Under the pieces are notes generated by a model. That model was not told the DNA's origin, searched no databases, and was given only the letters and a program-made list of their open reading frames with translations. From a virus: a stretch of DNA of 37,501 bases. The stretch spans positions 1 through 37,501 of the IMG/VR virus record IMGVR_UViG_3300028558_000062; one strand, 5' to 3'. Below, piece after piece: positions 24 to 29,308 of the stretch (positions are counted from its first letter, which is position 1; every line of letters begins with the position of its first letter). Both the position numbers and the translations under genes were made by a program.

Positions 24-3000
24 CTATTGAATGGTAGTAATTTGCGTCGGGCCGGTAGAGATCACCGAGCCGCCGGAGTTCCGATATTCGACTGCGTAAT
101 AGAGCACGCGACTGGATATGGCCGGGATGGCTATCGTGCAGCCGGACGCGCACGACAGGCCCACTGCGGCTTCGCTCGCCCACGAGAAGGGCGTTGCTTC
201 GCTCACCGCGGCGGCCATCGCATAGCAGGCCTCCTGGCGGGAAGTGCAATAGAAGGTCGGAGTGTAGCCGAACTTGACCGCGGCCGTGGAAGTGCTCGCG
301 GGTACGCTGCCGATCTGGATAGGCACGCCGATGAACGATGCTCGGTTGACCGAATCAGAGGAAGGCATCGGCGGAATCTTCACCATCATCAAATCCGAGC
401 GCTGGTCGTCGGACCAGAACGTCGTGAAGGTCGCCCACGATCCGTCTGGCGTGGCCTTGCCGGGGCTATAGTAGTCGAGCGGCTGACGCTTGAACCGCTG
501 GAAGCCGTAGGTGAGCGCCCTCTGGTATTTGCTGCTCGGGTCGGTCACGGTGCGGCCAACTTGGATGGCCGGAGAACCGAGAGGCCATCCCGAGTCACCG
601 ACGCAGATATCTTCCGCTTCCTCGCCGCTGCTTACTTCGTTGCTCGCCCCCGAGCAGCCGATGGTCACGCGGCCGGGGCAGTTCACGTAAGTGTCACCGG
701 AGTTCGCTCCCGAGTAGCACGCCGCCCCTTGGCAGTATTTCCAGTTGTCGCCGCTGGCATCCGTGATCGGACCCGGAGAGGCGTTCAACAAAACGTGCGA
801 TCCGCAGGATGCGAGGGTGGGCACGATCTTCGGGTGGGTCGTATCCGAGGTCTTGTAGAGATTTGAGGTAGTCGGAACCGCCGTCATCGTGGCGGCATAG
901 TATGCCGAGCCGATGATCGGGCGGGAGTCCAGCATCCAATTCAGGTTGTCGGCAGAGGCATCATCCTGCGCCTTTGACGGATGCGTGTCGCTGAGGTAGA
1001 TCGATTTCCTGAACCCGGCAAAGGTCGGGAACATTTGCAGGTACGACTGCGCGGGTTGGCCGATGGCCGTGGGCATTGGCCCGATGCGGCTTGCCAGGCA
1101 TACCCCGGTTCCGATTGCGGCCACACAGGGCGTACTGTCGCTCCACACGTAATCATTGCCCGCGCCCCATGTCGGATGAGAGACAGCCGAGCCCTCGGGC
1201 AGCACCGTCTGCCCGTTCGCATTCAGGCCAAGGGGATCATTGACGTAATCCCAGACGATGGCACCTTGGCCCGCTCCTGTGGGCCGCATATAAACGTTCG
1301 CTCCGTTGCTGTGCGCCGCCGCGCCGCCGCTCTGCGTACCCCAGTTCCGGGTAACTACCCAATGAGTCGAGGACACGACGCTGGTGATCAGCATCCATTC
1401 GCTGTTAACCTGGAAGGCGTCGCCGACGCGGGCAATGTCCAGCGCTCCAGCGCCCGGGTCTCCGGCAACGTAGACGTCGGTGACGGCGTTGTCGATTGCC
1501 TGAGTTAGCGTGGTGGTAAGCCGTGCATCTGTGCCGTTGTTGACCGTTACACTGATAAATCCGTTGTTCCGGCCGCTCGCCCCGTGGATCACGCCCCAGC
1601 GGGCGGGGTTGCTGTAGGGAGCACCCTTGTTGACCATGTCGAACACCGCGACAACGGGATTCACCGATCCGCTTGCGGTCAGGGAAGTATCGAGGACAAT
1701 GATGTATCCGGGGGGATAGTCCTGTCCGCCATTGCAATAACTGATAAGCTTCGTCCCTTGAACAGTGAATGCTTTGCAAGACCCGGTGGTCTCGGAGAAG
1801 GAGAACCGAGCATCGAACCGCGCGACGAGCGCCGTCAGGTTGTACTGTCCGGCCGGAGCATCGCTCGGATTCGACGGGGTGAGACTTGAGATCGTCGCTG
1901 GGAACGTGTCGCTGCTGTAATTCATGGACGCGACATCAGTGCCCGCTCCGTTGTATGTGGCCCCGAGAATGATGCGCTTGGTGGATGAGTCGGTGTAGTT
2001 GGAGTAGACCTTAAGCGGATTGCTTCCGTCTGATGTGAAGTTCACGCCAGACCAGAATGCGGCCTTCGACCATGCGTTACCGTGCCCGTCCGCGCTTTGG
2101 GCTGGCATTTGCAGCGGGCTCAGGTGGCGCACCGTTCCGTTTGTTCCGAGCCATCCGAAATACTCCATGTAGAGTTCGCAGTAGTAGCCCTTCTCGGACG
2201 AGAGCGTGACTGCGTTCGGGTTGCACTGTCGCGCATAGCCGGAGTTCCAGAAGGTGAAACCGCGGGCCTTGCCGATGTTGAAGCGCACGTTGGAGATCGT
2301 CACCGCGCCCGTGCCTGTTTTCTTCCAAATCAACACACCGAAGCTCTGCCCGACCACCGTGGGGCTGGTGAGCCCAAGCCCGGACGTGATCGTCGCAGAG
2401 GTGGGCCAAGAGTAGGCGCTCAGTTTATAGGGAGTGCCCGAGATCCAGACTCGCGTTCCGGTTGCCCACTTCCGGCCGAAATAGTAGCCGCTAGACCAAG
2501 TGAGCGCGCCTGTCGAATTGTTGTATGCGGCGACGGTGTTGGCGCGCTTCGCGAGATCCTGAGCGGCGAAGGATGGAGTTGCCCCGCCGAACCATGCCGT
2601 CCAGTATGGATTGGCATCGCCCACCGTCAACGTAGAAGATGACGACGTGAACGAGCCGCTATCGAGTCCGGTCGCATTCGGCGATCCCGCCGCGCACGTC
2701 ACTCCGTCAATGGTCAGGCAGGCCGTGACCTTTGCATCGTCGCCGCTGCCCGTCGCCGTGGCCGTGATGGCAATGGTTGCGTAGTTCGGAATCGCCACCG
2801 GGTCAGATGTGTAAATCGGCGTTGCGATTCCGACTGTGCTCATGTCGGCCGGAATGTACATCTTCGGCCGCGCCGTTCCGTCTGCGGTGTATGTGGCCGG
2901 AAGAGCGTTCGACGTGATCGACCACGGGTTCCCAGAGCCGGAATCATCGAAGGCTCCCAGGCCCACGATGTTCGTATACGGCGAATCGATGGCGGTCCCG

Positions 3001-3548
3001 GCGCCAGTGATCCGTTCTACCAGTGCGCCGGTCAGGGGATCGACATGGTATTCGGTGTTGGCCGTCAGTGTCTGCGTGGGCCATCCATAGTCGCCGGGCG
3101 AGTTGGGATCGACCGGATAGACCTCTGGGTACGTGTTGCCGAGCGGGATGTTCTGGGTCTTGAACTGCCCGTTGTAGATGCTCGCCCCGCAGGTGACACG
3201 GAAGTAATGCGTGGTGTTCGCTTGCAGCGCGCGGGAGTACCGCTTCCCGTCCGTGGCGGTTTCCGCAGCCCGCTTGCCAGCCACAAAGACACGCTCAGTT
3301 CCGACACTCAGTGATCCGGTCCGGCTATCCTGATCCGAGCCAGAGAATAGGCTGGTGTCCACGTCGTGCACAAGCGGAGATAGGCCGGATGCCTCGCTCA
3401 CCTGAAGGCTGCAAGCGTTCGCGTCCGGCGCGGTATAGCGAATAACTGCCTGCGTCGGGGTGGTGTCAACGGTAACACCGGTGACGGCGGCGAAGACAGG
3501 GACCACAAAGAGCGCCCCGATAGCTAGTGCTCTCATCGCGCTTGGCAT
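24..3548 (-). CDS. Large secreted FN3/propeller-like protein of the phage tail-fibre region
   Basis: This is a complete 1174-residue protein and the last gene of the secreted block. The first ATG (3548) lies one base after the stop of the upstream gene and has GGGGAG about ten bases before it. An in-frame ATG at 3536 (MRALAIGALFVVPVFA) gives a cleaner signal peptide and may be the true start. Residues about 20-130 look like a fibronectin III-type beta-sandwich. Around residues 700-760 is a stretch of the kind seen in phage beta-structured proteins (GDAFQVNSEWMLI then a WGTQ/H-x-NGA turn). Near residues 1035-1055 a motif (DGSWATFTTFW, then R-S-D-L) resembles the C-terminal propeller blade of the next gene. 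The C-terminal 80 residues look like another beta-sandwich. I recognise the style from Acidobacteria secreted proteins but cannot assign an enzyme activity. Binding to host surface or extracellular polymer is inference. Confidence 0.8.
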   Translation of the reverse strand: MPSAMRALAIGALFVVPVFAAVTGVTVDTTPTQAVIRYTAPDANACSLQVSEASGLSPLVHDVDTSLFSGSDQDSRTGSLSVGTERVFVAGKRAAETATDGKRYSRALQANTTHYFRVTCGASIYNGQFKTQNIPLGNTYPEVYPVDPNSPGDYGWPTQTLTANTEYHVDPLTGALVERITGAGTAIDSPYTNIVGLGAFDDSGSGNPWSITSNALPATYTADGTARPKMYIPADMSTVGIATPIYTSDPVAIPNYATIAITATATGSGDDAKVTACLTIDGVTCAAGSPNATGLDSGSFTSSSSTLTVGDANPYWTAWFGGATPSFAAQDLAKRANTVAAYNNSTGALTWSSGYYFGRKWATGTRVWISGTPYKLSAYSWPTSATITSGLGLTSPTVVGQSFGVLIWKKTGTGAVTISNVRFNIGKARGFTFWNSGYARQCNPNAVTLSSEKGYYCELYMEYFGWLGTNGTVRHLSPLQMPAQSADGHGNAWSKAAFWSGVNFTSDGSNPLKVYSNYTDSSTKRIILGATYNGAGTDVASMNYSSDTFPATISSLTPSNPSDAPAGQYNLTALVARFDARFSFSETTGSCKAFTVQGTKLISYCNGGQDYPPGYIIVLDTSLTASGSVNPVVAVFDMVNKGAPYSNPARWGVIHGASGRNNGFISVTVNNGTDARLTTTLTQAIDNAVTDVYVAGDPGAGALDIARVGDAFQVNSEWMLITSVVSSTHWVVTRNWGTQSGGAAAHSNGANVYMRPTGAGQGAIVWDYVNDPLGLNANGQTVLPEGSAVSHPTWGAGNDYVWSDSTPCVAAIGTGVCLASRIGPMPTAIGQPAQSYLQMFPTFAGFRKSIYLSDTHPSKAQDDASADNLNWMLDSRPIIGSAYYAATMTAVPTTSNLYKTSDTTHPKIVPTLASCGSHVLLNASPGPITDASGDNWKYCQGAACYSGANSGDTYVNCPGRVTIGCSGASNEVSSGEEAEDICVGDSGWPLGSPAIQVGRTVTDPSSKYQRALTYGFQRFKRQPLDYYSPGKATPDGSWATFTTFWSDDQRSDLMMVKIPPMPSSDSVNRASFIGVPIQIGSVPASTSTAAVKFGYTPTFYCTSRQEACYAMAAAVSEATPFSWASEAAVGLSCASGCTIAIPAISSRVLYYAVEYRNSGGSVISTGPTQITTIQ

Positions 3549-3549
3549 G

Positions 3550-6500
3550 TTACTTAAGCTCCCCGATGAAGATGTCGCGGTGTCCTGCCGCTCCGGCAGT
3601 GTTCAACCAGTCGCTCTTGAATAACACCCATCTGCCGTCATTGCTGACCTGGGCACTGGAGTAGACATAGTCGCCCTGCGCGGGCGTCTGCCATTTTTGG
3701 AAGAAGCGATAAACCGAGGCGCTGTTCTGTGTCGTGGTCGCCGACAGCGCGAGAATTTCTCCGCAACCCAGACACTGCTTGTTTCCGCCAGAGACGTTAT
3801 TGAGCGTGTCCTGAATTACTGGATACTGATTAGCATTAGCATCGTTGGCGTTGTTTGCCCAGCTCAAGTGGGTGCTATTGGTCGTGCTCGCCTGGAAGCA
3901 TCCGGAAGTCAAAACGGGCGGATTCGGAGTCGTAAACGTCCGATAGTCCATGCCGCTCTGGGAATAGGGGCACAGTTGCCCCGTGACGGCAAGCATGTTC
4001 CCGGCGCTCTGGTAAGCTATGCCTCCGTAGCCCATTGCAATGTGGGTCTGGTCGGAGTACCAACTCCATTGCGAGCCGGTTCCGGTAGCGAGATCGAACA
4101 TGAACTGAGCGTTCTTGGGGGGCGTAGACGAATACGAGCCGAAGGCCTGCCCGGTATCCACAAAGACGTAGCGTCCATCCTGGCCAACGACTATGGAGTG
4201 CAGTGTATTCAGACTGCCCACGTTGATGCCTGACATCACTGCGCCGTCAAACGTAGCCGCCGTTTGACCAACATCGACCAAGTGCGAGGCACCGCTCGTA
4301 AGGTTGTAGCAGGCGATCAACCTTCCGGTTCCCTGTCCGCTGCTCGTGCCGCTGTAGGCGCAGATTTCATCGCCGCCGCGGTAGATCGCAAGCCAGACTT
4401 GGCCAGAGATATAGCCAGGAATCGTATTGAGGTTCTTCAACACAGTCGGTGCTGTCCCCGGCGTATTGAGGTTGTACTGGACTAGATTCGGGTTGGCTAG
4501 AGCATAGAGAATGTTGCTGCTTGTGCCCGAGAATTGCCAGTTTTGATAGCCGCTGGGAAGCAACAGGCTTGACCCGGTGGTGCTCATGTTGGATGGGTTG
4601 AAGCCCACGTAATATTCCCGGTTGGCGTCGGCGGCAAAGATGACGCCGCTAGAGTCCGGAGCCCAGTTCTTATTCCACCCGCTGGCCGGCGTGTAGAACT
4701 GCGTACCGTTGGCCGTGCTGTTCAGTGAGCCCGTCGTGGTGATTCGCAAGATGCGGTTGCCCGTGTCGGGATCAGCATAGGTCGGCGTCGAACCAGGAGT
4801 GCATGCGTTAGTGGACGTGACGCTAACCGGGCAGGCCGCGCCAGGGGGCGTCGGAAGCACGGTGGTGGGATATGGGCCGCAGGCCCACGCGGCCCCGCTT
4901 CCGTTCCAGCCATTGCTTGCCGTGCCAGCCGCATAAGTCACGTTTGGGTCGCATCTCGGGCTGGTGTAGGTCTGAGCCGAGGGAATAACGGAGGCTATAT
5001 TCCACGATCCAGTGAATGTCCCCCTGAGTACAGCGCCCGTGGGTGCGGGCGAGATAGTTATCGAGAATCCGGTCGGACCAGCGGATCCGGCCGCATTCGT
5101 GGCAGTCACAGCAATGATCGACGTGCCCGGGGTAGTTGGAGACCCAGACAGTAATCCAGACGCCGATAGGGCGAGACCGGCCGGTACGCCGGACGCGCTC
5201 CATGTGATCGGCGTAGAACCGGTTGCGGTGAACTGTACGGAGTATCCCGCCCCGACCATTCCACCGGTGAGCGGCGAGGTCGTGATGAACGCCGGGGGAA
5301 TGATGGCGGCAGCTATCGTGAGCGCGAATGCCCGATTGCTCGTGCCCGCCGCGTTCGACGCCTGAAGTGTGAAGTTCGATGTGGCGATAGTGTTCGGCGT
5401 GCCCGTGATCGCGCCTGATGCCGCGTTGAGTGAAGCCCAGGCCGGAAGCGAGCCAGAGAGCACGCTCCAGGTGATCGGAGCGTCTCCCGTGGCTGCGACC
5501 GTGGCTGAATACGCTATTCCGACCGTACCTCCAGGCAGCGGAGAAGTGGTCGTGATCGTCGGAGGAACGGCGGACGGATTGATTGTGATTTGGAAGTTCT
5601 TGTTGTTGGACCCGACCGAATTGGTAGCGGTGACGCTGATCGTAGTCGTTCCTGCCGTCGTCGGCGTGCCCGAGAGCCAACCGCCGTTCAGCAGCGCAAG
5701 TCCTCCCGGAACATTGGTTGCGGTGAATGTAATCGGCGTAGTGCCGCTCGCATTGAACTGGTATCCATAGGCAGAGCCCACTGTGCCGGTGTTGATTGGC
5801 GAGAGATTGGTAATCGTGGGAGCGACCGGAGCCGCGGCAATCGTGATCGAGAGCGCCTTGTCGTTCTGCCCCGCCGCATTCGTCGCGCGCACGGTAAAGT
5901 TCGTGGTCGCTGCCGCATTCGGGGTTCCCGTAATCGCGCCCGTCGAAGTGTTCAGCGTTGCCCACGCGGGGAGAGATCCCACAACAACGGACCACGTAAT
6001 CGGCGTATCGCCTGTTGCCGTGAGTGTCTGGGAGTAGGCTACGCCCACCGTGCCGCTGGGAAGTGAGGCCGTTGTGATCGTCGGTGCCGTACCGCTGCCG
6101 GCGCCGTACTCGTACGCTCCCATGTCGTACCCGGCCCCATACGGGCGGGAGAGGCCCTCATGGTCCAAGGGCACGGAGGCAAGAGTATTGCCGGAGTTAA
6201 TCGCGGGGCTAGTTGCCTGTAGCCTATAGTCTCCGGCCCCGCTCGTAGACGACGGCGATACTAACTGCGGATTGCCATTGATGTCAGACCCTCCGGCCGG
6301 ATTAGCGAGCGTGTATCCGATATCGTACTGGATATTTCTTGTGCTGCCGGCAACGGAACCTCCGGTCTGCGCGTAATAATAACTACCGGGAAGGTAAGAA
6401 CTCATTCCGGTAAATATATTGTTAATCGCGGTTACGTGGGCTCCACCTGAACCCCAACTGTCACGGCTCACCAACTGCGCGTTTCCGCCGTGGCACACAT

Positions 6501-7473
6501 TGTTATAGAAGTTCACAATAAATCCGACGCTGTCAAATACTCCGCACCACGAACCGGCGTTAACCAGCAGGTTGTTCGTGATCGTCCACGTTCCGTAGTA
6601 GTTCGCAGTCGCATGATCGTTACTCAGCATGAAGCCTTCGTCGAAATTATCTACCGTGTTCCCGATCATGGTCATATTGCGGGAGAACAGGTTATTGGCA
6701 TCGTCGGAGAATGTCTGCCATCCGTCATTATGTGCCTGGGAAGACCTGCAGGTGCCGCTTGAACCCTTCGTTGTCCCGTGAAAATAGTTATATGCGAAGG
6801 TGTTGCTGTCCCCCCATAGTCTGTTGAAATCGCAATCATCGGTGCTGGTGCTAGGTAACGTGAGGGCATTTACCTCGTTGTAGTCGAGGAGGGAATTGTC
6901 GGCCGCCAACAGCGTGCCGTATTGAGCCCCTGTTATGTAGTTGTGGTATGCGTGAAGATGATTCGGCCTACCGGAAAAGCCCGGCCCCTGCGTGTTGATT
7001 CCGGTAACAAGGGTGTTTGGTGTAGCATCCACGTAGTTGTTGAAGAACTCCGCATATGCTACATTCGTTCCTCCGACGCTCATTCCTCCGGTCATCCGAA
7101 AGCAATCCAGCTTGTTGTAGCTGGAGTTGATCGCAGCCCCGTTGACGTAGACAACAGGAGCGGTCCTGGTCTTAACCGGACTCTCTACATCAGTTTGCGG
7201 AGTAGTCGGGCAGGAGCTTCCGATCGGATAACCCTGAAGAGTGATCGGATTACCGGAAGTCCCTGCACGGTTCATCGTTATCGACTCGCTATACGTACCG
7301 GCACTGACGACGATGGTGTCTCCGGCATTGGCTTGGCCGTAGGCATAGGCGATGGTGAGGCACGGAGAGCCCGCCGAGGTGCAGGCTCCCGAATTAGCAC
7401 CGGTTTTGGCAACGTAGCGCGTGGCCGCTTGGGCCGAGCAAGCCAATATCAACAGACAAATTAGTCGTCTCAT
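3550..7473 (-). CDS. Secreted beta-helix / Ig-repeat / propeller protein, possible depolymerase or adhesin
   Basis: This is a 1307-residue modular protein. It has a signal peptide (MRRLICLLILACSAQA, then ATRYV). Residues about 20-455 form a right-handed parallel beta-helix of the DUF1565/pectate-lyase-like type: it opens TRYVAKTGANSGACTSAGSP, repeats N-rich short strands, and closes with SPAINSG and a D-x-GAYEYG end. Residues about 458-814 are four putative Ig (He_PIG-like) domains. Residues about 820-1307 look like a beta-propeller, ending DGRWVLFKSDW and RDIFIGELK. The ATG overlaps the upstream TGA (ATGA), so translation is probably coupled; no good Shine-Dalgarno is seen. Beta-helices in phages often bind or cleave polysaccharide, but I see no assignable catalytic residues. 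A lipoprotein reading (I-L-A-C) is possible but less likely than type I cleavage after AQA. Confidence 0.85.
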   Translation of the reverse strand: MRRLICLLILACSAQAATRYVAKTGANSGACTSAGSPCLTIAYAYGQANAGDTIVVSAGTYSESITMNRAGTSGNPITLQGYPIGSSCPTTPQTDVESPVKTRTAPVVYVNGAAINSSYNKLDCFRMTGGMSVGGTNVAYAEFFNNYVDATPNTLVTGINTQGPGFSGRPNHLHAYHNYITGAQYGTLLAADNSLLDYNEVNALTLPSTSTDDCDFNRLWGDSNTFAYNYFHGTTKGSSGTCRSSQAHNDGWQTFSDDANNLFSRNMTMIGNTVDNFDEGFMLSNDHATANYYGTWTITNNLLVNAGSWCGVFDSVGFIVNFYNNVCHGGNAQLVSRDSWGSGGAHVTAINNIFTGMSSYLPGSYYYAQTGGSVAGSTRNIQYDIGYTLANPAGGSDINGNPQLVSPSSTSGAGDYRLQATSPAINSGNTLASVPLDHEGLSRPYGAGYDMGAYEYGAGSGTAPTITTASLPSGTVGVAYSQTLTATGDTPITWSVVVGSLPAWATLNTSTGAITGTPNAAATTNFTVRATNAAGQNDKALSITIAAAPVAPTITNLSPINTGTVGSAYGYQFNASGTTPITFTATNVPGGLALLNGGWLSGTPTTAGTTTISVTATNSVGSNNKNFQITINPSAVPPTITTTSPLPGGTVGIAYSATVAATGDAPITWSVLSGSLPAWASLNAASGAITGTPNTIATSNFTLQASNAAGTSNRAFALTIAAAIIPPAFITTSPLTGGMVGAGYSVQFTATGSTPITWSASGVPAGLALSASGLLSGSPTTPGTSIIAVTATNAAGSAGPTGFSITISPAPTGAVLRGTFTGSWNIASVIPSAQTYTSPRCDPNVTYAAGTASNGWNGSGAAWACGPYPTTVLPTPPGAACPVSVTSTNACTPGSTPTYADPDTGNRILRITTTGSLNSTANGTQFYTPASGWNKNWAPDSSGVIFAADANREYYVGFNPSNMSTTGSSLLLPSGYQNWQFSGTSSNILYALANPNLVQYNLNTPGTAPTVLKNLNTIPGYISGQVWLAIYRGGDEICAYSGTSSGQGTGRLIACYNLTSGASHLVDVGQTAATFDGAVMSGINVGSLNTLHSIVVGQDGRYVFVDTGQAFGSYSSTPPKNAQFMFDLATGTGSQWSWYSDQTHIAMGYGGIAYQSAGNMLAVTGQLCPYSQSGMDYRTFTTPNPPVLTSGCFQASTTNSTHLSWANNANDANANQYPVIQDTLNNVSGGNKQCLGCGEILALSATTTQNSASVYRFFQKWQTPAQGDYVYSSAQVSNDGRWVLFKSDWLNTAGAAGHRDIFIGELK
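5030..6100 (-). repeat. Four tandem putative Ig (He_PIG-like) domain repeats in an A-B-A-B order
   Basis: Four units of about 86-90 codons occur inside the 3550-7473 gene. Units 1 and 3 share PITWSV, GSLPAWA, LN..(S/T)GAITGTPN and a C-terminal LTIAA-type end. Units 2 and 4 share a G-L-A-L core, L-SG(T/S)PTT.GT and an ITI(N/S)P end. The alternation suggests duplication of a two-domain block rather than of single domains. Confidence 0.75.
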
Positions 7474-8468
7474 TGGAGTGTCACGAAAGTCGCAAAGTAC
7501 CCGTTGTCGGATTGCGAGTTAACTGTGGCTACATTGCCTCCCGGATAAGCACCGGTAGAGCTGACGATCTTATAGAACACGGCATGGTCTTGGCCATTCG
7601 GAGACGCCAGGATAAAGCTATTGGCCGCCGTATAGGTGTGTACGGCGTTCTCCACTACGCCGTAAACTAGGATCTCGTTTGCAGACGCCGTGGTTGCCGT
7701 ATTGGTCGCCAGTCTCGTGGTTGCCGTGGTAACGGAGGCGTCGCAGGCGGCACTGGAGCAAGTGAATGTATCTATCGATGTTACTCCGGTGAACACGACA
7801 ACCTGAACGCTCGGATAGGACGCCAAGTCACTAAATGTTGCAGTGAATGTTGCTGTCGCATTAGCGGTCGCATTGGTCTTTATCCAAACGTCAACAGAGT
7901 ACGCCCCTATATTTCCGTTGTTATTGACGGCGGCCGACGTCAGCGAGTTTGAACCTCCATCGGTAACGCTGGATACCTGCTGGTTGCCGTGGCCTACGAA
8001 AGCAACTACCGTGGCTCCAGCCGGAACAGAAACCGTAGAACTCGTGGCTACAGTTGCTACTCCATTGGCGAATGCACTATCGCGATAACTGCTGGCTTGG
8101 TAGGCCAAGGTTCCGCCTGCGCTGATCGTGTACGCCGCGCTCGCCTCGGCACTGTTGGAATAGCCGGGGCACCCGATCACCTTCGCGTACCATGTCCCCG
8201 CGCCCGTCACGCTGAACGTGTTCGAGTGGGTATCGCCTGAAGTAACTCCAGACGAGGTCTTGCTGTAGATGTACGAGGAGCACGCGCCCGTGGCCGTGCT
8301 GATCGTGACGGTCGTTGGATTCGACACCGCTCCGGCGACGGGCGAGAACGTCGGGGTGGCGGCGGTACCATTCCCGCCCCCCATCGTCAGACCACCCATC
8401 GTGCCGACTAGGACTTGTGCCTGAGTGGACAGGCTGAATGCGAGCGCGACAAAGATCAGTTTCTTCAT
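7470..8468 (-). CDS. Secreted two-domain beta protein, lectin/adhesin-like
   Basis: This is a 332-residue protein with a clear Sec signal peptide (MKKLIFVALAFSLSTQA, then Q). After the signal comes a glycine-rich block, VGTMGGLTMGGGNG, which recurs after the signal peptide of the 26583-28826 protein. Residues about 36-110 resemble the chitobiase/beta-hexosaminidase C-terminal type Ig fold (TPTFSPVAGAVSNPTTVTI and a following Y-x-K-V). Residues about 115-332 form an all-beta domain rich in Ser, Thr and Val, perhaps a jelly-roll lectin fold. A strong AGGAGG lies five bases before the ATG, nine bases after the upstream stop. Its own TGA overlaps the next ATG. A carbohydrate-binding role is inferred from fold style and context only. 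Confidence 0.8.
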   Translation of the reverse strand: MKKLIFVALAFSLSTQAQVLVGTMGGLTMGGGNGTAATPTFSPVAGAVSNPTTVTISTATGACSSYIYSKTSSGVTSGDTHSNTFSVTGAGTWYAKVIGCPGYSNSAEASAAYTISAGGTLAYQASSYRDSAFANGVATVATSSTVSVPAGATVVAFVGHGNQQVSSVTDGGSNSLTSAAVNNNGNIGAYSVDVWIKTNATANATATFTATFSDLASYPSVQVVVFTGVTSIDTFTCSSAACDASVTTATTRLATNTATTASANEILVYGVVENAVHTYTAANSFILASPNGQDHAVFYKIVSSTGAYPGGNVATVNSQSDNGYFATFVTLQ

Positions 8469-8477
8469 AGTGGCCTC

Positions 8478-11400
8478 CTAGTTGGCAGTCCATGCTCCGA
8501 AGTAGGACGTGACGAGATAATGAGTTGAGTCCCTCCCGACGAGACAGATACGATTGCCAGCCGCCGCCGTTGCCGTCATGGTCCCCGCCGCGGTCCCGTA
8601 AGCGGTAAGGCCCACATTGGAGTAGTAGTTGCCGGACCCAAGGGACGCCAGAGTGATCGCGGTCGATACGTTAACGTCATTCATTATGCAGAACTCGTTT
8701 CCGGCCGCAGGTACCGGAACCGTAACGGTGCATGTGCCGGTGCAGACGGCATAACCGCGTGGGGCCGCAAGCGTAATAGCGGTACTGGGGGTCGGGATCG
8801 GAGTCACCGGGATGTCGGTTGCTATCAGTGCCGCGCATCCAGGTGCCGAGCTTCCCTTGAGGACTCCCGACGTACATGCGACGATTGACGGAGCCCCCCC
8901 GGAGGTGGTAACCAGGACTCCCGAGTTGGACGTGGTAAGACCGCTGACGGCATTACCGGACGCTGAGTAGAGGAGTTGATTAACCGTCGTAGTGACCGGC
9001 CAGGTCGTTGTACTCCACGCTGCTAGACCGGCAGTGGCCGTCGAGACCTGCATCTGGTTGGCCGTGGTAGAAGTTGGGGAGAAAGCCAGAGGGACTGACG
9101 TGCTAGTTGCAGTCCTCAGTTCCAGCTTGTGTGTTGAGGAGTTGCACCACAGCTCGAAGTGTCCGGATGCAAGCGTCGTGGTCGGAATCGTTCCTTCAAT
9201 GCACTCGAAGTAGCCGGATGTCCCGTCACTCGAGGCTGGGGTGGACAGGCGATTAGTAGCCGCATCGAATTCAAAACCAGCGGTTGCGCCGAACGCGCCA
9301 GCGTTGTTGTACTGCACCTGCTTCGTCGCGCCCGCAGGGGTGCCCCCTACCGTGATCGTGCAGGTTCCGCCGAGGGTACATGTCTGCCCATTGACCGTGG
9401 TGCTCGTATTCCCGAGAGCCAGCGTGGGAATTCCATTCGAGGTGGTCTTTGTGAGCCCAGTTCCCGCCGCTACCAGATCCCGGTGAGAGGCCGTCCAGGT
9501 TCTCCGGCAGGCCCCGACCGTCCCGCTCACTACATCGCAGTCCGCAAGGATTACGGCGTCCGCGGGATAGGCCGTAACCGCCCCGTCGTCCGTCATCGCT
9601 GTCAGGGTTCCGGCCCCGGTAATTCCCGTTCCCCGTCCGATACGAACTTGGGTATCACCCGACGTCAGGTAGAAATAAACGGTGCCCGTGCCCGTGGGAG
9701 ATGCCGCCGAACTGGCCGAGATCGTCCGGGCCACGTTGCCGATCCCGAATACGCCGGAGGTCAGGCTGATCGTGTTGCCTGCCACCGAAGCCGTGTAATC
9801 GGTTGCCAGGCGGGTATTGAGCTGGGCCTGAATCCCGCTCGTGACTCCAGACAGATAGCTGACTTCCGTCGGGGTTGCGGTATCGATCGTCTTGCCCGTA
9901 AGCGTGCTCGGCACGTCGGCGTCCGCAATCGCGGCCTTCTGCTGTATTCCCGCTGTGTCGACGTGCGTCACAAATTGGTTCGCCGTGCGACTGGCCGCCG
10001 GGTAAACCATCGTGCCTGCCACAGTTCCCGCACTGCCCTCGTACTGTGGGATATGCGCGGAGGAATCAAACCAGATAGTCCCGCTACCGCTCGTCGGAGC
10101 CGATGGCTTAGCCTGTTCGGCACCAGTTGCGGAGAACGTGGAACCGCCCACGAAACCATTCGGCGCCGTAACTACTCCACCGGAACCTAAGACGCCGGTG
10201 CCCTGAAGATGACCGGCTCCGTCCGATGCGTTCAATTCGTTCGCCGCGCCCGTCGCACTCGCAATCGCAGGCCAAGTCGAAGGCGCGCCCGTGATGGCGT
10301 TCTGTTTCGCATTCCACGTTGCAGCCGAGGCGATGTAGGTGTCCGCTACGGCCGTACCATGCCAGACGCCCGCGGTGATCGTGCCGACCGTGACTACGTT
10401 CGCATCGCCGCCAGCGGGAACCGCGCCAACCTGCGCGGCGGTATCGCCGTGCGGGTTGCTCATGTTGGCAAGGTGCGCGTCAAGCTGTGCGTGCGTGTTC
10501 GCGCCAGCGCCCGAGAGGTTCTGATGTACGATGTTTCCCTCGTTGATCGTCGCGTCCACGCGGTCGGTTCCGTTGAGGGCGATCGTCAGACGGTTGTTCG
10601 CGGAATACAGCTTGTAAAACGCAAGGTCCACGCCGGTCTTCCCCTTGAACAATCCGGTGCCCACTGTGCCGGTGTTCGATGCGGTGTTTACCTCGCCGCT
10701 TCCCGAACCGCCCGGGGGAACTCGACACACGCCGTCTCCGCCGACTACCGTGGTGCTGTCCATCGTGCCGGACGAGCAGATGCGGGTAATCGGAATCGTG
10801 CCGGTCGTGATTGCCGCTGCATCGTGAACGTGAGAGAGTGCCGCATAGACCCCGGCGTGGAGGTGGTCACCTGCCGCAACCGTGCCCACCGCAGTACCAA
10901 CATTGAGGAGTGCGGCTCCGCCGAGTCCGAGGTTTCCGCGGGCGGTGACGACGTTGTTCAGGTCCGCAAGATTGCTGGCGATCTTGAGCTGAGGATTGTT
11001 CGTCACCGTACCGAGCCCGATTTGCGTCTTGTCTGTGGCGTGCGGATTAGAGGTGCTGGCGATATGGGCCTGGATATTGGCGTTGAAATCCTGCTTGCCG
11101 GAGAACGCCGCAACGAGGTCGGTCTGTGCCGCCAGTGAGCCGGTGATCCCGCCCCACGCGGTCGCAGAGTTGGCCGGGAGTTGCGCCACTGGAACCAGTC
11201 CGTTCGCGTCGAGATTGGGATAGCCGAATGGTTGCCCCTTGCTTGCGAGATTCTCCTTCCCGTTGAGCCCTGCCTGAAGGTTGCTCACGTCGCTGATCGC
11301 GTGCGCGTGACCTACCGGCGATTTTCCAGAGAGCGCGGTTGCGAGGTCCGTCTGATCCGATAGCGTGCCGAGGATCTGGCCCCACGAGCCACCCCCACCA

Positions 11401-11855
11401 GAACCCCCGCCGAATGCAGACCACGTTCCCGGAGTGCCCGTCGAGGTGCAGAGTTTCCACCCCGGAACACTCTTGTCCAGCCACACGTCATCGACCGTGC
11501 AGGACGCGGGAGCCGAGGACGAGATGAGGTAACGATCCGAAGTCCAGACGTTCGTCGCCGAGCAACGATAGAGTAGGCTCAAGCCCGTCTGATAGACGCG
11601 CTGTCCAACCGCGCACGTCGCAGGCAGTGAAGCTACATCAACGATGGGGAAATTCTGGAGGCGCGCGAAATTCGCGTTGATTACCGCGCGGGAATCGCCC
11701 GCCCAGTAGCCGCTCAGTATGACAGCTAGACTCGTGGTATCCACACACACGGTCACTGGAGCACTCACCGGCCCGGTTCGTACCGCGACTTGCGTCTGCG
11801 TACATTGACTGAATGCCGCAACCGCCAAAACAAAAGTCAGGATGATCGTTTTCAT
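8478..11855 (-). CDS. Large tail-fibre-like protein with an N-terminal signal peptide
   Basis: This is an 1125-residue protein. It starts with a signal-peptide-like segment (MKTIILTFVLAVAAFS, then QCTQ), which is odd for a tail fibre. Residues about 130-450 carry fibre-type repeats: W-GxI-x-G-x-L-x-x-QTDL-x-x-A-x-SGK, PNLDANGLVPVAQLP, and several His-x-His style sites (GHAHAISDV, GDHLHAG, SHVHDA, SNPHGDT). Phage long-tail-fibre shafts use such HxH sites to bind metal. The remainder is Gly/Ser/Thr-rich beta sequence typical of fibre shafts, including T-Y-x-SGVTSGIQAQL-type spacers. The last 75 residues match the C-terminus of the 28823-29308 protein. GAGGGG lies a few bases before the ATG, 12 bases after the upstream stop. 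Most likely it is a receptor-binding fibre. Whether the signal peptide works is unknown. Confidence 0.85.
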   Translation of the reverse strand: MKTIILTFVLAVAAFSQCTQTQVAVRTGPVSAPVTVCVDTTSLAVILSGYWAGDSRAVINANFARLQNFPIVDVASLPATCAVGQRVYQTGLSLLYRCSATNVWTSDRYLISSSAPASCTVDDVWLDKSVPGWKLCTSTGTPGTWSAFGGGSGGGGSWGQILGTLSDQTDLATALSGKSPVGHAHAISDVSNLQAGLNGKENLASKGQPFGYPNLDANGLVPVAQLPANSATAWGGITGSLAAQTDLVAAFSGKQDFNANIQAHIASTSNPHATDKTQIGLGTVTNNPQLKIASNLADLNNVVTARGNLGLGGAALLNVGTAVGTVAAGDHLHAGVYAALSHVHDAAAITTGTIPITRICSSGTMDSTTVVGGDGVCRVPPGGSGSGEVNTASNTGTVGTGLFKGKTGVDLAFYKLYSANNRLTIALNGTDRVDATINEGNIVHQNLSGAGANTHAQLDAHLANMSNPHGDTAAQVGAVPAGGDANVVTVGTITAGVWHGTAVADTYIASAATWNAKQNAITGAPSTWPAIASATGAANELNASDGAGHLQGTGVLGSGGVVTAPNGFVGGSTFSATGAEQAKPSAPTSGSGTIWFDSSAHIPQYEGSAGTVAGTMVYPAASRTANQFVTHVDTAGIQQKAAIADADVPSTLTGKTIDTATPTEVSYLSGVTSGIQAQLNTRLATDYTASVAGNTISLTSGVFGIGNVARTISASSAASPTGTGTVYFYLTSGDTQVRIGRGTGITGAGTLTAMTDDGAVTAYPADAVILADCDVVSGTVGACRRTWTASHRDLVAAGTGLTKTTSNGIPTLALGNTSTTVNGQTCTLGGTCTITVGGTPAGATKQVQYNNAGAFGATAGFEFDAATNRLSTPASSDGTSGYFECIEGTIPTTTLASGHFELWCNSSTHKLELRTATSTSVPLAFSPTSTTANQMQVSTATAGLAAWSTTTWPVTTTVNQLLYSASGNAVSGLTTSNSGVLVTTSGGAPSIVACTSGVLKGSSAPGCAALIATDIPVTPIPTPSTAITLAAPRGYAVCTGTCTVTVPVPAAGNEFCIMNDVNVSTAITLASLGSGNYYSNVGLTAYGTAAGTMTATAAAGNRICLVGRDSTHYLVTSYFGAWTAN

Positions 11856-11867
11856 TTTTCCCCTCTT

Positions 11868-12611
11868 TTACAGCGCGTCCCAAGTCGTGCCGACAGCCGA
11901 GAGCGAATCCCACGTTTGCCCGTATCCGCCGCCCGTTCCGGTACCGCACGGGCCGGAAGTTCCGTCCACGCGCACGCAATCGGTCGATGTGCCCGCCACC
12001 AGGCCGGGCGTGCCGCTCGTCACGGCGACGATTCCCGATCCGCTGGGAGTGGTGAGCTTCGCTCCGAACAGTGCCGCCAGGTCGGGCTGCTGCAACGGGT
12101 CCCCGCCGGTGATGCCACCCCATGCCGCGGAGCCCGCGACAGCGTTCGCTGGGAGCCAGGACGCGCCATTCCACACAAGCGCCTGCCCCGTGGTCGCGCC
12201 GGATCGCGCAATCTGGCTCGGCTGAATCGGAGTCGGCGGAGCGGGCGCATTCCCGACCTGAATCTGCGAGACCTTGAGCGGGCTTGCCGAGGTGGGTACG
12301 AGCCACGTCTCCGGCCACGTCTGCCCGCCGTTGGACGGCCGGTACGTCGCGCTGCATCGGCGCCCGGTCGGTTGGCCCGCGTCTCCGGGGTCGATATCGA
12401 CGTAGCCCGTGGGCGGATTGACGATGCCGTTGACAACGGAGACCTTCATCGCCCATCGGCGAATCACGTCCCCGGCTGCATTCACGCCAGAGGGACAGTC
12501 GATGAGGATGTCGCCGGACCAGCCGGTACCGTACGGCGTCTTGATCGGGCCGGTGATCTGGGTTGCGAACGCGCAGACACACAACGAAAGCAATGCGATG
12601 AGTCGTTTCAT
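11868..12611 (-). CDS. Short fibre-like protein with signal peptide
   Basis: This is a 247-residue protein. It has a signal peptide (MKRLIALLSLCVCAFA, then TQITG). A mid region from about residue 20 to 130 has the pattern W-S-G-D-I..CPSGVNAAGDV, followed by P-x-x-W. Residues about 145-175 carry the common tail-fibre motif SGATTGQALVWNGASWLP. Residues about 180-205 (WGGITGGDPLQQPDL..LFGAK) match a repeat of the next gene (8478-11855). The C-terminal 40 residues are Gly/Thr/Ser-rich and end in W-D-S-L and W-D-A-L. TAAGGA lies about nine bases before the ATG. It probably works with the downstream fibre, for instance as an adaptor, but this is inference. Confidence 0.8.
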   Translation of the reverse strand: MKRLIALLSLCVCAFATQITGPIKTPYGTGWSGDILIDCPSGVNAAGDVIRRWAMKVSVVNGIVNPPTGYVDIDPGDAGQPTGRRCSATYRPSNGGQTWPETWLVPTSASPLKVSQIQVGNAPAPPTPIQPSQIARSGATTGQALVWNGASWLPANAVAGSAAWGGITGGDPLQQPDLAALFGAKLTTPSGSGIVAVTSGTPGLVAGTSTDCVRVDGTSGPCGTGTGGGYGQTWDSLSAVGTTWDAL

Positions 12612-12621
12612 GGAGGGGTCC

Positions 12622-13011
12622 TTACAGAATCTTGTTGAGGTAGTTCTTCGTTTCGGTCGGCAGGAACGCGCGCCAGTCCGAGCCGTGGGCCGTCAGGCAC
12701 TTGTCAAGATTGCCCGGCCCCCAGTTGTAAGCCGCGAGCGCCTTCGGATATTCGCCGTACTTTTTCTTCAGCGATGCCATGTACTTCAGCCCGCCGTTGA
12801 CGTTCTGCCGCCAGTCCTTCGGGTCAACCTTTAGGCTCTCGGCCGTCTTCGGCATCAACTGCATGAGGCCGATGGCACCGCACGGCGATATCGCGGCCTG
12901 ATTGAATCCGCTCTCCGCTTGGCACTGCCGCAGATGCAAGTCGGAATCAAGGCCCAACTGGGGGGCGAGCCAACGAATGAAATTCTCGACGTCTTCGCGG
13001 GTGGGTGTCAT
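12622..13011 (-). CDS. Soluble lytic transglycosylase (SLT-like), endolysin or tail lysozyme
   Basis: This is a 129-residue single-domain lytic transglycosylase, predicted to cleave the MurNAc-GlcNAc bond of peptidoglycan. The family motifs are clear: the catalytic Glu in QCQAESGFN, then GAIGLMQLMPKTAESL, GGLKYMASLKKKYG and ALAAYNWGPGNL. I take ATG at 13011 because it lies two bases after the upstream TGA; longer readings only extend into antisense of the upstream gene. There is no signal peptide or membrane segment, unlike the five genes downstream of it. It could be the endolysin, or a virion lysin acting at DNA entry. No holin or spanin is recognisable nearby, so its release route is unclear. 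Confidence 0.93.
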   Translation of the reverse strand: MTPTREDVENFIRWLAPQLGLDSDLHLRQCQAESGFNQAAISPCGAIGLMQLMPKTAESLKVDPKDWRQNVNGGLKYMASLKKKYGEYPKALAAYNWGPGNLDKCLTAHGSDWRAFLPTETKNYLNKIL

Positions 13012-13013
13012 CG

Positions 13014-13508
13014 TCAATCCGTCGAGAACGAAATGCCCTCTATTGAGAGCCAGGTATTCCCGGTGACACTGTAGATCTTGATCGTTCCGTCCGTGCCGAT
13101 CACGACGTAGGGGTTCCCACCGGCGTTGCATCCGAGCGTGCGGAGGATGTTGCCGGCGGGCCGATAGCCGGACGGCAGGGTGAACAGCACTGTGGCATCG
13201 GTCGTGGTTCCGGACTTGATGAGTCCGCGAACCCAGACGCGGCCCTGCTTGTCCATGCGGTAGCCAGCAGAGGTGTAGCCGGAGCCGAAGTTGACCCACG
13301 AGGCCCCAAGGGTTGGAGCCGCCCAGGAGTCCTGCCCGATCCCCCCGCCCGCATAGAAGTTCAACTGCCCGACGTCCGTGATGTTGTAGCCCTGGTGTGC
13401 GGTATCGCCCGCAGGGTGCTGAATGTCGTAGGCCAGATCATAGAAATCCGTGTAGCTGGGCGCGAAGCCGGAAGCGAATCTCGATAGCAGTGCTCTCCAG
13501 ACTGACAT
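13014..13508 (-). CDS. Virion fibre/baseplate-type structural protein
   Basis: This is a 164-residue beta-rich protein. Residues about 60-164 follow the common phage receptor-binding or fibre-tip pattern: WVNFGSGYTSAGYRMDKQG, RVWVRGLIKSG, LFTLPSGYRPAG, then a TDGTIKIYSVTGNTWLSIEGI end. Residues 10-60 contain a short DF-Y-DLAYDIQHPAGDT segment that may attach it to the virion. AAGGAG lies six bases before the ATG. Unlike its left neighbours it has no signal peptide. I infer a small fibre or tip protein. Confidence 0.8.
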   Translation of the reverse strand: MSVWRALLSRFASGFAPSYTDFYDLAYDIQHPAGDTAHQGYNITDVGQLNFYAGGGIGQDSWAAPTLGASWVNFGSGYTSAGYRMDKQGRVWVRGLIKSGTTTDATVLFTLPSGYRPAGNILRTLGCNAGGNPYVVIGTDGTIKIYSVTGNTWLSIEGISFSTD

Positions 13509-14235: not shown

Positions 14236-14376
14236 ATGAAGAAAGCAACCAGTTTCCGGCTGAGCGAGGAAATGCTGAGGCTGCTTGCTCTCCTTGCCGC
14301 CGAGTTGGGAATCTCTCAGGCATCAGCGCTTGAGGTGGCAGTTCGTGAATCCACCAAGAAAAGAGGAATCAAGTGA
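14236..14376 (+). CDS. Small ribbon-helix-helix (CopG/ParD-like) regulator
   Basis: This is a 46-residue protein read directly from the sequence. It starts MKKATSFRLSEEMLRLLALL, continues AAELGISQASALEVAVRES and ends KKRGIK. This is the ribbon-helix-helix pattern: a basic beta strand (ATSFRLSEEM), helix A, a G-I-S turn, then helix B. The family binds DNA as dimers and commonly autoregulates. The gene lies directly behind a promoter with a palindrome. Its TGA overlaps the GTG of the next gene (GTGA), so the two form a coupled pair. The layout resembles antitoxin-toxin pairs, but the partner is a secreted protein, so a moron with its own repressor is an equal or better reading. Confidence 0.8.
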   Translation: MKKATSFRLSEEMLRLLALLAAELGISQASALEVAVRESTKKRGIK

Positions 14377-14726
14377 AGCAAATCGCGATGTTTGCCGCGC
14401 TACTTTTCGCGCTGCCCCTGAGCGCACAGATTCAACCCAAGCAGTTCTACGTCAACAACGCCTCCGGAATCCGCTGGTACATCGAGGACTCGCACCAGTC
14501 GGGATCCACGGACATTTCCATCGACTCCCTGACGCGCAACATCGACATCGTGCGGGTGATCGTGACCAAACCGTCTGGGCATTCCGAGACGTTCGTTGTT
14601 GACTTCCGGGACCTCAAGGGGCCGAGTAAAAACCGCGTCATTTCCACGATTCCCATCGGCATCCAGGATTGGCAGAAGGTCCGGCTTGAAATTCACCGCT
14701 TGCCGGAGACGGCAGATTTTGAGTAA
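14373..14726 (+). CDS. Small secreted protein, candidate lysogenic-conversion (moron) product
   Basis: This is a 117-residue protein with a GTG start, preceded by AGAGGA five bases upstream and overlapping the stop of the regulator gene. It has a typical signal peptide (MKQIAMFAALLFALPLSA, then QIQPKQ). The mature part is about 98 residues, beta-rich, with no cysteine pairs or membrane helix: NNASGIRWYIEDSH, then I-D-I-V-R-V-I-V-T-K, and an end R-L-E-I-H-R-L-P-E-T. It is predicted periplasmic or exported. I do not recognise the family. Its strand opposes all virion genes and it has its own promoter. That suggests expression in the lysogen, for example superinfection exclusion or host surface change, but this is inference. 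Confidence 0.8.
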   Translation: MKQIAMFAALLFALPLSAQIQPKQFYVNNASGIRWYIEDSHQSGSTDISIDSLTRNIDIVRVIVTKPSGHSETFVVDFRDLKGPSKNRVISTIPIGIQDWQKVRLEIHRLPETADFE

Positions 14727-26582: not shown

Positions 26583-28826
26583 CTACTTCGCGCCGATGTT
26601 GACGTTCGATGCCGGGGTGATTCCTGAGATCACGACGCCCGCGCCGATGGCCGGGGAGCCGGCCTGGAGGGTGAAATCGCCCGCTGCGGGATTGGTCAGG
26701 AGTGGATCGGTCGTGAGAGCGTTCGTTACACTCCCATAAGCCGTTGCCCAGGAAGTATACGTCGATTGAAATGCGCCGAGTCCCCACTCGATGAAGTTGG
26801 CCGCTTGTGGCCCAAAGGCGTTGTACGTGTAGACGTTTCCGGTTCCGTGCGTGGTATCGTTCTCGCAACCGAACTCGGTGAGTAGTTCTGGTCCAGCAAC
26901 CGCAGCCACGGAGATGTTGTCCTGCACTGTATTGTTAACGCATCCAGCAGCCATCAAAGGGTAATAGCCGGATAGTAACAGTTGTCCCCAAGCGTATACG
27001 AGAGCCGAATTGGTCACGTTACCCCAGAGGGTGTTAGAATAAATCTGCATGTTTCTGGTCGTTGTCCCATCAGTGTTATTCGATGTAGCTACACCGATTC
27101 CGGCTACATCGTTAGAGTATGCAACATTGTGGTGAACCAGGATCCCGCTGTCGTTCTCAATGTATATACCGTGCAATTTGTTCAGTCCACTGACGTTATA
27201 CGAAACAACTGCTCCGTTTGGATCGGCGGTATCAATCCAGATTCCAATTCCGTTCGCTAAAGTCTCATTTGATTGAGGCCATGTAACCGCAAGGCCGTTG
27301 TAATCAACTCCATTGGATAATGTTGTGTTTCGTGTGATTAGCAATCCGTTTGAGTGTGTGCTTCCAGGCGGGAAGTCAATTGTTCTGATCCCGCCGCTAA
27401 ACTGCAAATCGTTTACCGTCGTGCTCCACAATTGCCCGTTTCCGTTCGCCACGCTGTCAACGACGGTGGAGTTTTTGGTATACCCGGAAAAACAAATTCC
27501 GGTATTTCCATTATTCAGGGACGTCACGCCGCTGACCAAAAGATTATTGCGGTAAGTCGTTCCCGAAGTTCTCGACCGGATTCCCTGCCATACTGCGTCT
27601 CTTACGGTGAGATTGGATATGGTGACTCCGGTAGAGTCCTCCGCAACAACGATGTCGATATTTGCCGCCCGAACATCTATTCCTGTCACCGTAAGGTAGC
27701 TTTTCCCACTGATATTGACACCGAAGTTCCGCTGACTGGCAGTGAGCGTGTAACCTGTTGGCGCATTGTTGCCGCTCGTGCGGATATAGATGGATGATCC
27801 GCTCCACCAAGAATTTCCTACGTTAAGGTGCGCTTGATCTGCTACGGGCAAGTAACGCGTACCATTCTCGAACACTTGTCCTGGTGCCGTACCCATTGCC
27901 AGAGAGTAATCCGTGAATGTACCTCCGCTGGTATAGTTGCCAGCAGATGTGGACGCCTCCCACTGCGACCACGCCAAAGTGAGGGACTTACCCGTGCCGA
28001 CATAGTTGTAAATCCCGTCCCCGCTTTCCATGGAAATCCTGGTATTCACATAAGTACTACCGGATGGATCAACAGTCGTCACGCTAATCCGATAAAACCC
28101 ATTCCCGGCCAACAGGCTGGATGCTGTACACCCATCTGTCTTGTAATTGGACCCTATCTGCCCGGTTCCAACATTAAACCAATAGTTACATTGAGTTCCA
28201 CCGCTCCACGAAGTATGCAACCTGACCCAACTCAATGTCCCGGCTTTGGCAAACACGGAAAAGGTATACGTGGTGCCTGGAGTCTGCGCCGGATATGTCT
28301 CGGCAAGATGCTCTGCATTTGTTCCGTCGTCTGTTATGACTGACCCCGACGTTCCCCCCTTGGGGTCGGAGCCGGACGCGACTGTCGAAGCACTAAGAGA
28401 GAAAGTGGCTGAGTTAATGTCGCCCGCAAAAAGGTTTGCAGATGCAACGCTGGTATGCGTCGTGAAGCCGCTAATGACATCTGTGCCGTCGATGACTGGG
28501 TTAGCCCCCGCCCCGTACGCCCCAAACGTAATCGGACTCCCCGCGCTTCCGCTCTGCCCCGGTGTCAACGTCTCGCGCCACAGCCCGCCTCGCTTGAAAC
28601 CGACAGACTGACCCGGCGTGAGGGTGGTCCCGTTCACCTTGGCAATCGTCTGCCACGGCAGCGCCAGCGTACCGGCGTTGGAGTCAGAGCCGGCGGAGGA
28701 ATCGACGTAGTAGGTATAGGACTCGCCGTTGCCACCCCCCATTGTAATTCCGGCCATGGTGCCGACGACCTGGGCCATCAGGGGCACAGCTATAACCCCT
28801 ACCATAAGGATTTTGTACGGAGTCAT
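26583..28826 (-). CDS. Secreted right-handed beta-helix protein with lectin-like insert
   Basis: This is a 747-residue protein. I take ATG 28826, overlapping the upstream TGA (ATGA), because it gives a signal peptide (MTPYKILMVGVIAVPLMA, then Q). Next is VVGTMAGITMGGGNG, shared with the 7470-8468 protein. A beta-helix start of DUF1565 type follows (YTYYVDSSAGSDSNAGTLAL), then an insert at about residues 130-280 with the phage jelly-roll/CBM pattern (YTFSVFAKAG, YWFNVGTGQIG, GFYRISVTT, GKSLTLAWSQWEAS). The rest is a long N-rich helix (VTISNLTVRD, NGIGIWIDTAD, HHNVAYSNDVAGIGV), closing TDPLLTNPAAGDF and SPAIGAG. It is visibly AT-richer than its neighbours. Likely it binds or degrades surface polysaccharide; no catalytic residues are assignable. 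Confidence 0.85.
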   Translation of the reverse strand: MTPYKILMVGVIAVPLMAQVVGTMAGITMGGGNGESYTYYVDSSAGSDSNAGTLALPWQTIAKVNGTTLTPGQSVGFKRGGLWRETLTPGQSGSAGSPITFGAYGAGANPVIDGTDVISGFTTHTSVASANLFAGDINSATFSLSASTVASGSDPKGGTSGSVITDDGTNAEHLAETYPAQTPGTTYTFSVFAKAGTLSWVRLHTSWSGGTQCNYWFNVGTGQIGSNYKTDGCTASSLLAGNGFYRISVTTVDPSGSTYVNTRISMESGDGIYNYVGTGKSLTLAWSQWEASTSAGNYTSGGTFTDYSLAMGTAPGQVFENGTRYLPVADQAHLNVGNSWWSGSSIYIRTSGNNAPTGYTLTASQRNFGVNISGKSYLTVTGIDVRAANIDIVVAEDSTGVTISNLTVRDAVWQGIRSRTSGTTYRNNLLVSGVTSLNNGNTGICFSGYTKNSTVVDSVANGNGQLWSTTVNDLQFSGGIRTIDFPPGSTHSNGLLITRNTTLSNGVDYNGLAVTWPQSNETLANGIGIWIDTADPNGAVVSYNVSGLNKLHGIYIENDSGILVHHNVAYSNDVAGIGVATSNNTDGTTTRNMQIYSNTLWGNVTNSALVYAWGQLLLSGYYPLMAAGCVNNTVQDNISVAAVAGPELLTEFGCENDTTHGTGNVYTYNAFGPQAANFIEWGLGAFQSTYTSWATAYGSVTNALTTDPLLTNPAAGDFTLQAGSPAIGAGVVISGITPASNVNIGAK

Positions 28827-29308
28827 TGATTCGTCCATGTTCCGCCGCCAGTGAATGCCATGTACTGCGTAGTCGAAACAGCTACCACGCAAGCCGAATC
28901 GCCCAATGCTCCCCCACTCACGAGCGTTCCCGCTGCACTTCCGTTCGCCCCTTTCACGTCGATGTAGGTCGAAGCCGGAGCGGTGAGCGTAATAGCCCCG
29001 GTCCGGGTAACCGCGTTACGGAAGCACATCTGAAGCCCCACTGTGGCCGTGATGATGGCTGGTAGGTTGTAGGTGACCGCTCCGGAGCCGTTGTTGAGGT
29101 AGAAACCTGTCGCAGCTGGGCTGATCGGGCTTGTGGTCGTAATCGCCAACGGAACGATGACGCCGGATGTGACGTTAAGCACCGTAGCGCCGATCGCTAC
29201 GCTACTGCCCGCCTTGCGAGGAGAGATGGTCGTTCCGTTCTGCTTCCAGGGATTCGTCTGCCCGCACAGGAGCGCGGCGGCAAAGAGAGTTAGGATTGCG
29301 GTCTTCAT
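28823..29308 (-). CDS. Small secreted fibre-tip-like protein
   Basis: This is a 161-residue protein. Signal peptide MKTAILTLFAAALLCG, then QTNPWKQNG. The mature part is beta-rich (NGSGAVTYNLPAIITATVGLQMC). From about residue 92 its C-terminus matches the end of the large fibre at 8478-11855: C-F/I-x-N, AITL, Y, AAGT, C-V/L-V, Y, G-x-W-T at the end. The ATG overlaps the upstream TGA, and its own TGA overlaps the next ATG, so it is fully embedded in the operon. Perhaps a small attachment or chaperone-like domain for fibres; function unknown. Confidence 0.8.
   Translation of the reverse strand: MKTAILTLFAAALLCGQTNPWKQNGTTISPRKAGSSVAIGATVLNVTSGVIVPLAITTTSPISPAATGFYLNNGSGAVTYNLPAIITATVGLQMCFRNAVTRTGAITLTAPASTYIDVKGANGSAAGTLVSGGALGDSACVVAVSTTQYMAFTGGGTWTNQ

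Follow-up and report, generated by a model that had tools for sequence, protein, structure and literature searches.

By the textbook, tailed phages are assembled wholly in the cytoplasm. Why, then, would consecutive genes in the fibre region of such a phage open with export signals, and where might their products end up? We addressed this with the IMG/VR virus record of a soil phage, analysed in its entirety (37,501 bases, carrying no host genome; hereafter the window), in which the minus-strand genes run from terminase, portal, protease and capsid protein to the tape measure and tail genes, a transglycosylase gene and finally five ORFs with signal peptides (Table 1).

Signal peptides in the window

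The five N-termini share a basic n-region, a hydrophobic core of 8–11 residues and a small-x-small site, and their KD mean over 11 residues is 2.5–3.0, as compared with 1.73 or less in the other called genes (signal peptide gene 28823 excepted). The initial annotation had read a Sec signal peptide at the start of each gene and had proposed signal peptide prediction as a check. Using a rule-based predictor written for this analysis (n-region charge, hydrophobic core and small-x-small site; it is not SignalP), we found all five to be of the Sec/SPI type, which bears out that reading. Two extra genes, sited between the capsid and tail modules, also carry signal peptides, so the window holds at least seven such genes rather than five. 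The rule was passed by 6/16 window genes of at least 240 aa but by only 3/216 ORFs of at least 240 aa in 55 other contigs (binomial p=5e-8 for 6 or more of 16 at the control rate), and by 21/1519 internal Met contexts. A lipobox (SPII; [LVI][ASTVI][GAS]C) was absent from the core end in all seven proteins, the 3550 product having a near-miss, ILAC; read from sequence, a lipoprotein identity was rejected since the lipobox is missing.

Table 1. Signal peptide genes and post-signal motifs of the window (a slash marks the predicted cut, placed by eye)
Feature	Positions	Strand	Signal peptide	Predicted cut	Remarks
SP-bearing 1174-aa protein	24..3548	-	~3489-3548	MPSAMRALAIGALFVVPVFA/A	20 mature Cys
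SP-bearing 1307-aa protein	3550..7473	-	~7426-7473	MRRLICLLILACSAQA/A	four He_PIG Ig-like domains; 18 mature Cys
SP-bearing 332-aa protein	7470..8468	-	~8418-8468	MKKLIFVALAFSLSTQA/Q	4 mature Cys
SP-bearing tail-fibre-like protein, 1125 aa	8478..11855	-	~11808-11855	MKTIILTFVLAVAAFS/Q	20 mature Cys
SP-bearing fibre-like protein, 247 aa	11868..12611	-	~12564-12611	MKRLIALLSLCVCAFA/T	4 mature Cys
SP-bearing beta-helix protein, 747 aa	26583..28826	-	~28773-28826	MTPYKILMVGVIAVPLMA/Q	
SP-bearing 161-aa protein	28823..29308	-	~29261-29308	MKTAILTLFAAALLCG/Q	mostly fibre-tip domain with Cys pair
Post-signal motif GTMxGxTMGGGNG, copy 1 (7470 product)	8368..8405	-			exact; 0 expected in shuffles
Post-signal motif GTMxGxTMGGGNG, copy 2 (26583 product)	28726..28763	-			exact; 0 expected in shuffles

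The 8478 product combines a phage tail repeat (PTR, 25.4 bits, just under the Pfam cut-off of 27 bits), HxH motifs and a C-terminal tip domain with a Cys pair, and it matched PHROG tail families. It has a fibre repeat, WGGITG..QxDLxAxFxxK, in common with the 11868 product. The fibre repeats that had been ascribed to both proteins are thus present, as are the HxH sites of the former; HxH sites in the 11868 product were rejected, its sequence being without any histidine. The 24 product gave no family match, and the 3550 product is weakly similar to ORF17 of the cultured phage Tunturi_1 (29% over 269 aa). The signal peptide and first domain of the 7470 product, whose gene has a 4-base overlap with the next, resemble those of a soil contig protein (L069:5235; 33% over 178 aa). 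The ATG of the beta-helix gene (at 28826) overlaps the stop of its upstream neighbour 28823-29308. The search with the post-signal motif found copies in the window only. Among 50,697 phage records the 24, 8478 and 11868 products had zero relatives, and in IMG/VR the tail protein 16362 and Tunturi ORF11 used as baits likewise returned none.

A 117-aa ORF with a GTG start (14373-14726, plus strand) lies opposite to all other genes, in a gap between minus-strand genes. It has a signal-peptide-like start (MKQIAMFAALLFALPLSA, followed by Q) and zero cysteines; it is a doubtful eighth signal peptide gene, whose product could be a small secreted protein.

Recurrence in cultured phages and soil contigs

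Five phages of Tunturiibacter (Acidobacteriota) have been cultured (PMC11924767). Signal peptide blocks are present in four of them: the podoviruses Tunturi_1 and Tunturi_2 (ORF12, 13, 14, 16 and 17), the siphovirus Tunturi_4 (ORF113 and ORF114, joined by ORF111 when its start is moved to an upstream TTG) and the myovirus Tunturi_5 (ORF337, annotated as tail fiber; ORF338, virion structural; ORF341 and ORF342, both tail fiber). No signal peptide gene was found among 43 ORFs scanned in Tunturi_3. The paper's text annotates these proteins by fold (for Tunturi_1 and Tunturi_2 in part as tail spike, ORF14; tail fiber; pectin lyase; virion structural protein, ORF17) and mentions neither signal peptides nor virion proteomics (PMC11924767). 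Like the window, the four phages have runs of signal-peptide-bearing, Cys-even, fibre- or beta-helix-like genes in their structural modules, and their proteins share domains with those of the window, partly via intermediate contigs; they differ from the window phage in gene content. The initial annotation had regarded a shared mechanism as not described for siphoviruses, which understates its reach: the pattern takes in podo-, sipho- and myoviruses that all infect one host genus, and it is found outside the fibre block too.

In Tunturi_4, the annotated start of ORF111 (80433; L062:30076-33171) hides a signal peptide; starting from the upstream TTG instead gives a signal peptide and a first domain that share 54% identity with those of ORF113 over 103 aa. 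The signal peptide is kept whatever domain comes next (Tunturi_1 ORF17, Tunturi_4 ORF114), and the only large spike-like genes of the podovirus Tunturi_1 bear signal peptides. Fibre-type genes lacking a signal peptide are found in the window (13014-13508) and in Tunturi_4 (ORF112), and the signal-peptide-bearing proteins may therefore be accessory. The same scan of reference phages gave one match in lambda, one in P22, none in T7 and one in the parts of T4 scanned. We take the lambda match to be lom and the P22 match to be a membrane protein, and have seen no apparent fibre gene among the lambda, P22 and T4 matches.

Similar blocks occur in soil contigs L002 and L065–L076, that of L065 being syntenic at 33–53% identity, and the signal-peptide-bearing proteins of the window, L002, L065–L072 and the Tunturi phages form a network of shared domains. 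When INPHARED was searched with such a protein from L069, the sole records matched were Tunturi_1, _2 and _4. Given this network and the restriction of the matches, the host of the window phage is likely a bacterium of the Acidobacteriota; L067 (39% GC) and L072 (63% GC) may infect other hosts. A TerL search did not find the host; it returned a single contig of 8 kb together with distant loci in genomes from other phyla. The position of the block varies: in L069 it separates the portal gene from a putative minor head gene, in L002 and the window it follows the capsid gene, and the window has a further one at its far end. The blocks tend to adjoin a putative lysozyme, endolysin or transglycosylase gene (L065:10454, L071:3506, L059:24200 and 12622-13299 in the window), an arrangement that would suit a timing shortly before lysis.

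Even cysteine numbers in the predicted mature proteins

If the signal peptides are functional, the mature proteins are expected to have paired cysteines. Across all phages including Tunturi_5, and counting mature proteins with at least two cysteines, the number was even in 47/50 with and 44/80 without a signal peptide (Fisher p=6.5e-7; as some members are homologous, this and the following parity p-value are somewhat optimistic). In the first set, even numbers were seen in 27/29 signal-peptide-bearing proteins (window, Tunturi_1 and _4, L002, L065 and L066), as compared with 17/37 structural proteins without signal peptides (window, Tunturi_1, _3 and _4); in the loci fetched afterwards (L067–L076) the counts were 16/17 (p=1.4e-4) and 27/43. 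Cysteine density also differs, at 1.71% with and 0.61% without a signal peptide (p=2.7e-9), and in the ORF114 family 18/20 and 19/20 cysteines are conserved at about 50–53% identity. Within the window, six of the seven proteins have an even number, the exception being the 26583 product with five. The sequences thus support the signal peptides, their gene context, a cysteine pairing signature and recurrence in cultured phages. Export and a shared mechanism, both raised by the initial annotation, gain from the conserved signal peptides, the even and conserved cysteines and the recurrence in unrelated phages: these proteins are very probably exported and, if exported, we would expect with strong confidence that they carry disulfide bonds.

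Virion parts or free secreted proteins

A fibre-tip domain with an invariant Cys pair takes up the last 110 residues, at the C-terminus, of the 8478 product and accounts for the greater part of the 28823 product. Besides these two copies, it is present in L002, L067, L068/L069, L070/L071 and L072, and the ORFs that contain it bear signal peptides in 6/6 independent phages where it was found (those of L068/L069 and L070/L071 were assigned by eye, since an Arg close to the cleavage site makes the strict rule reject them when the likeliest start is taken). By comparison, a signal peptide was found in 0/41 fibre ORFs of the control contigs (25 distinct N-termini). An AlphaFold model of the tip is beta-rich and of middling confidence (pLDDT 73); its fold resembles fibre proteins of viruses as well as unnamed phage proteins and has a weak likeness to a capsid spike, and a PDB search with the tip profile gave weak tailspike matches only (E about 0.5). 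Residues 145–294 of the 26583 product match Rcc01080, the head spike fibre of the Rhodobacter capsulatus gene transfer agent RcGTA (E=4.4e-10), the likeness being limited to this one domain of about 150 aa. Furthermore, the mature N-end of Tunturi_5 ORF337 weakly resembles the N-end of Tunturi_4 ORF112, which has no signal peptide (41%, E=0.2), and ORF112 in turn matches the tail fibre of Sinorhizobium phage phiM5 (54% over 35 aa, E=5e-4), a protein without signal peptide for which detection in the particle proteome is noted. Finally, the first mature residues are shared within one phage, as expected of a common docking tag, between the window 7470 and 26583 products, between Tunturi_4 ORF111 and ORF113, and between two L073 genes.

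These data suggest an extracytoplasmic site of folding for some fibres of such viruses. We infer cleavage, disulfide bonding, periplasmic storage and docking at lysis as the successive steps. The tailed phage would express these fibre- and spike-type proteins late, the host Sec pathway would export them and signal peptidase I would cut them; they would fold with disulfide bonds in the periplasm and most likely build up there during the cytoplasmic assembly of heads and tails; and, as lysis breaches the inner membrane and wall, they would dock onto virions via the N-terminal segments exposed by cleavage. Taken whole, this scheme may well be correct, with a probability just short of even; its last part, that the proteins are virion parts joining at lysis, is mildly favoured once export is granted. 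That a whole set of tailed phages of podo-, sipho- and myovirus types, mainly infecting Acidobacteriota, uses Sec export and disulfide formation to mature its receptor-binding fibres or spikes in the host periplasm, and fits them to virions only at lysis, is a more tentative proposal.

The main alternative, a serious one if somewhat less than evenly probable, is that the proteins are exported and disulfide-bonded without being virion parts: late "morons" at work in the periplasm, at the surface of the cell or within the lysate, where they might bind or cut polysaccharide, clear receptors from debris or serve in adhesion. The signal peptides and cysteines fit this too, the domains are typical of secreted proteins (He_PIG, Big_2, laminin-G and beta-helix domains often occur in ordinary ones as well), and the blocks lie at differing sites in L069, L002 and the window, like cargo. 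Assembly of tailed-phage virions in the cytoplasm counts against a virion role, as does the number of large proteins, five to seven per phage being many for one virion, and so do the fibre-type genes lacking a signal peptide in the window and Tunturi_4. The single lambda match, which we take to be lom, would be an established case of export from a tail-region gene. Lom is a Sec-exported outer-membrane protein from a single gene without fibre features, and morons of its type are small outer-membrane beta-barrels. The window proteins range from 161 to 1307 aa and have beta-helix, Ig and fibre domains. The fibre repeats and tip domains, the match of the 26583 product to the RcGTA head spike and the restriction of large spike-like genes in Tunturi_1 to signal-peptide-bearing ones all argue against free morons. 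Together with the position in structural operons and the N-end link from ORF337 through ORF112 to phiM5, they make joining of virions at lysis slightly more probable than a free secreted role.

It is improbable that the hydrophobic N-ends stay uncut, play no part in export and anchor the fibres to the virion or, from inside, to the membrane, an option that the initial annotation had offered in its virion form. Cleavage is predicted from sequence alone, and a rule-based predictor cannot separate all anchors from signal peptides; however, the cores are short with small-x-small sites, often followed by Q, the signal peptide is kept ahead of differing domains, and an uncut N-end would leave the even and conserved cysteines unexplained. 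An artefact, be it from hydrophobic starts arising by chance, from misassigned start codons or from contaminating host DNA, is highly improbable: although start codons are inferred and Tunturi_4 ORF111 requires a TTG upstream of its annotated start, the excess over the base rate, the interleaving with phage structural genes and above all the four cultured phages largely refute it.

Tail fibres are a known kind of protein; in the literature searched, which left out most subscription journals, we found neither a precedent for Sec-routed fibres of tailed phages nor a description of Sec-exported, disulfide-bonded ones. For phiCbK, Circe, UFJF_PfDIW6 and rumen phages, signal peptides are mentioned for lysis proteins or in counts only. 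The tail-fibre-like surface adhesins PblA and PblB of the Streptococcus mitis prophage SM1 are released via holin and lysin and have no signal peptides, unlike the window proteins. The coat proteins pIII and pVIII of filamentous phages are virion proteins inserted by the host export machinery before assembly; they differ from the present case in that the phage is non-tailed and assembles at the membrane. Docking at lysis, if true, would be categorically new. Fibres made outside would give tailed phages a second assembly compartment and an extra step, possibly harden the fibres for soil through disulfides, and make infectivity dependent on host export and Dsb enzymes. If the proteins instead act free, phages of a dominant soil phylum would secrete large polysaccharide-binding proteins before lysis. 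Under both readings signal peptides would serve as a marker; with the cultured Tunturi phages the question can already be tested.

Two further observations concern individual blocks. The GC content is 0.51 across 27001-28500, within the beta-helix gene, as compared with a window mean of 0.60, a hint that this gene was perhaps acquired recently. In L073 (6828-17781), seven signal-peptide-like genes follow one another, six with 4–14 mature cysteines (all even) and one without cysteine; two of them share the post-signal sequence QGFNPAGxPPxVYADNYGRW, and possible integrase and transposase genes lie nearby.
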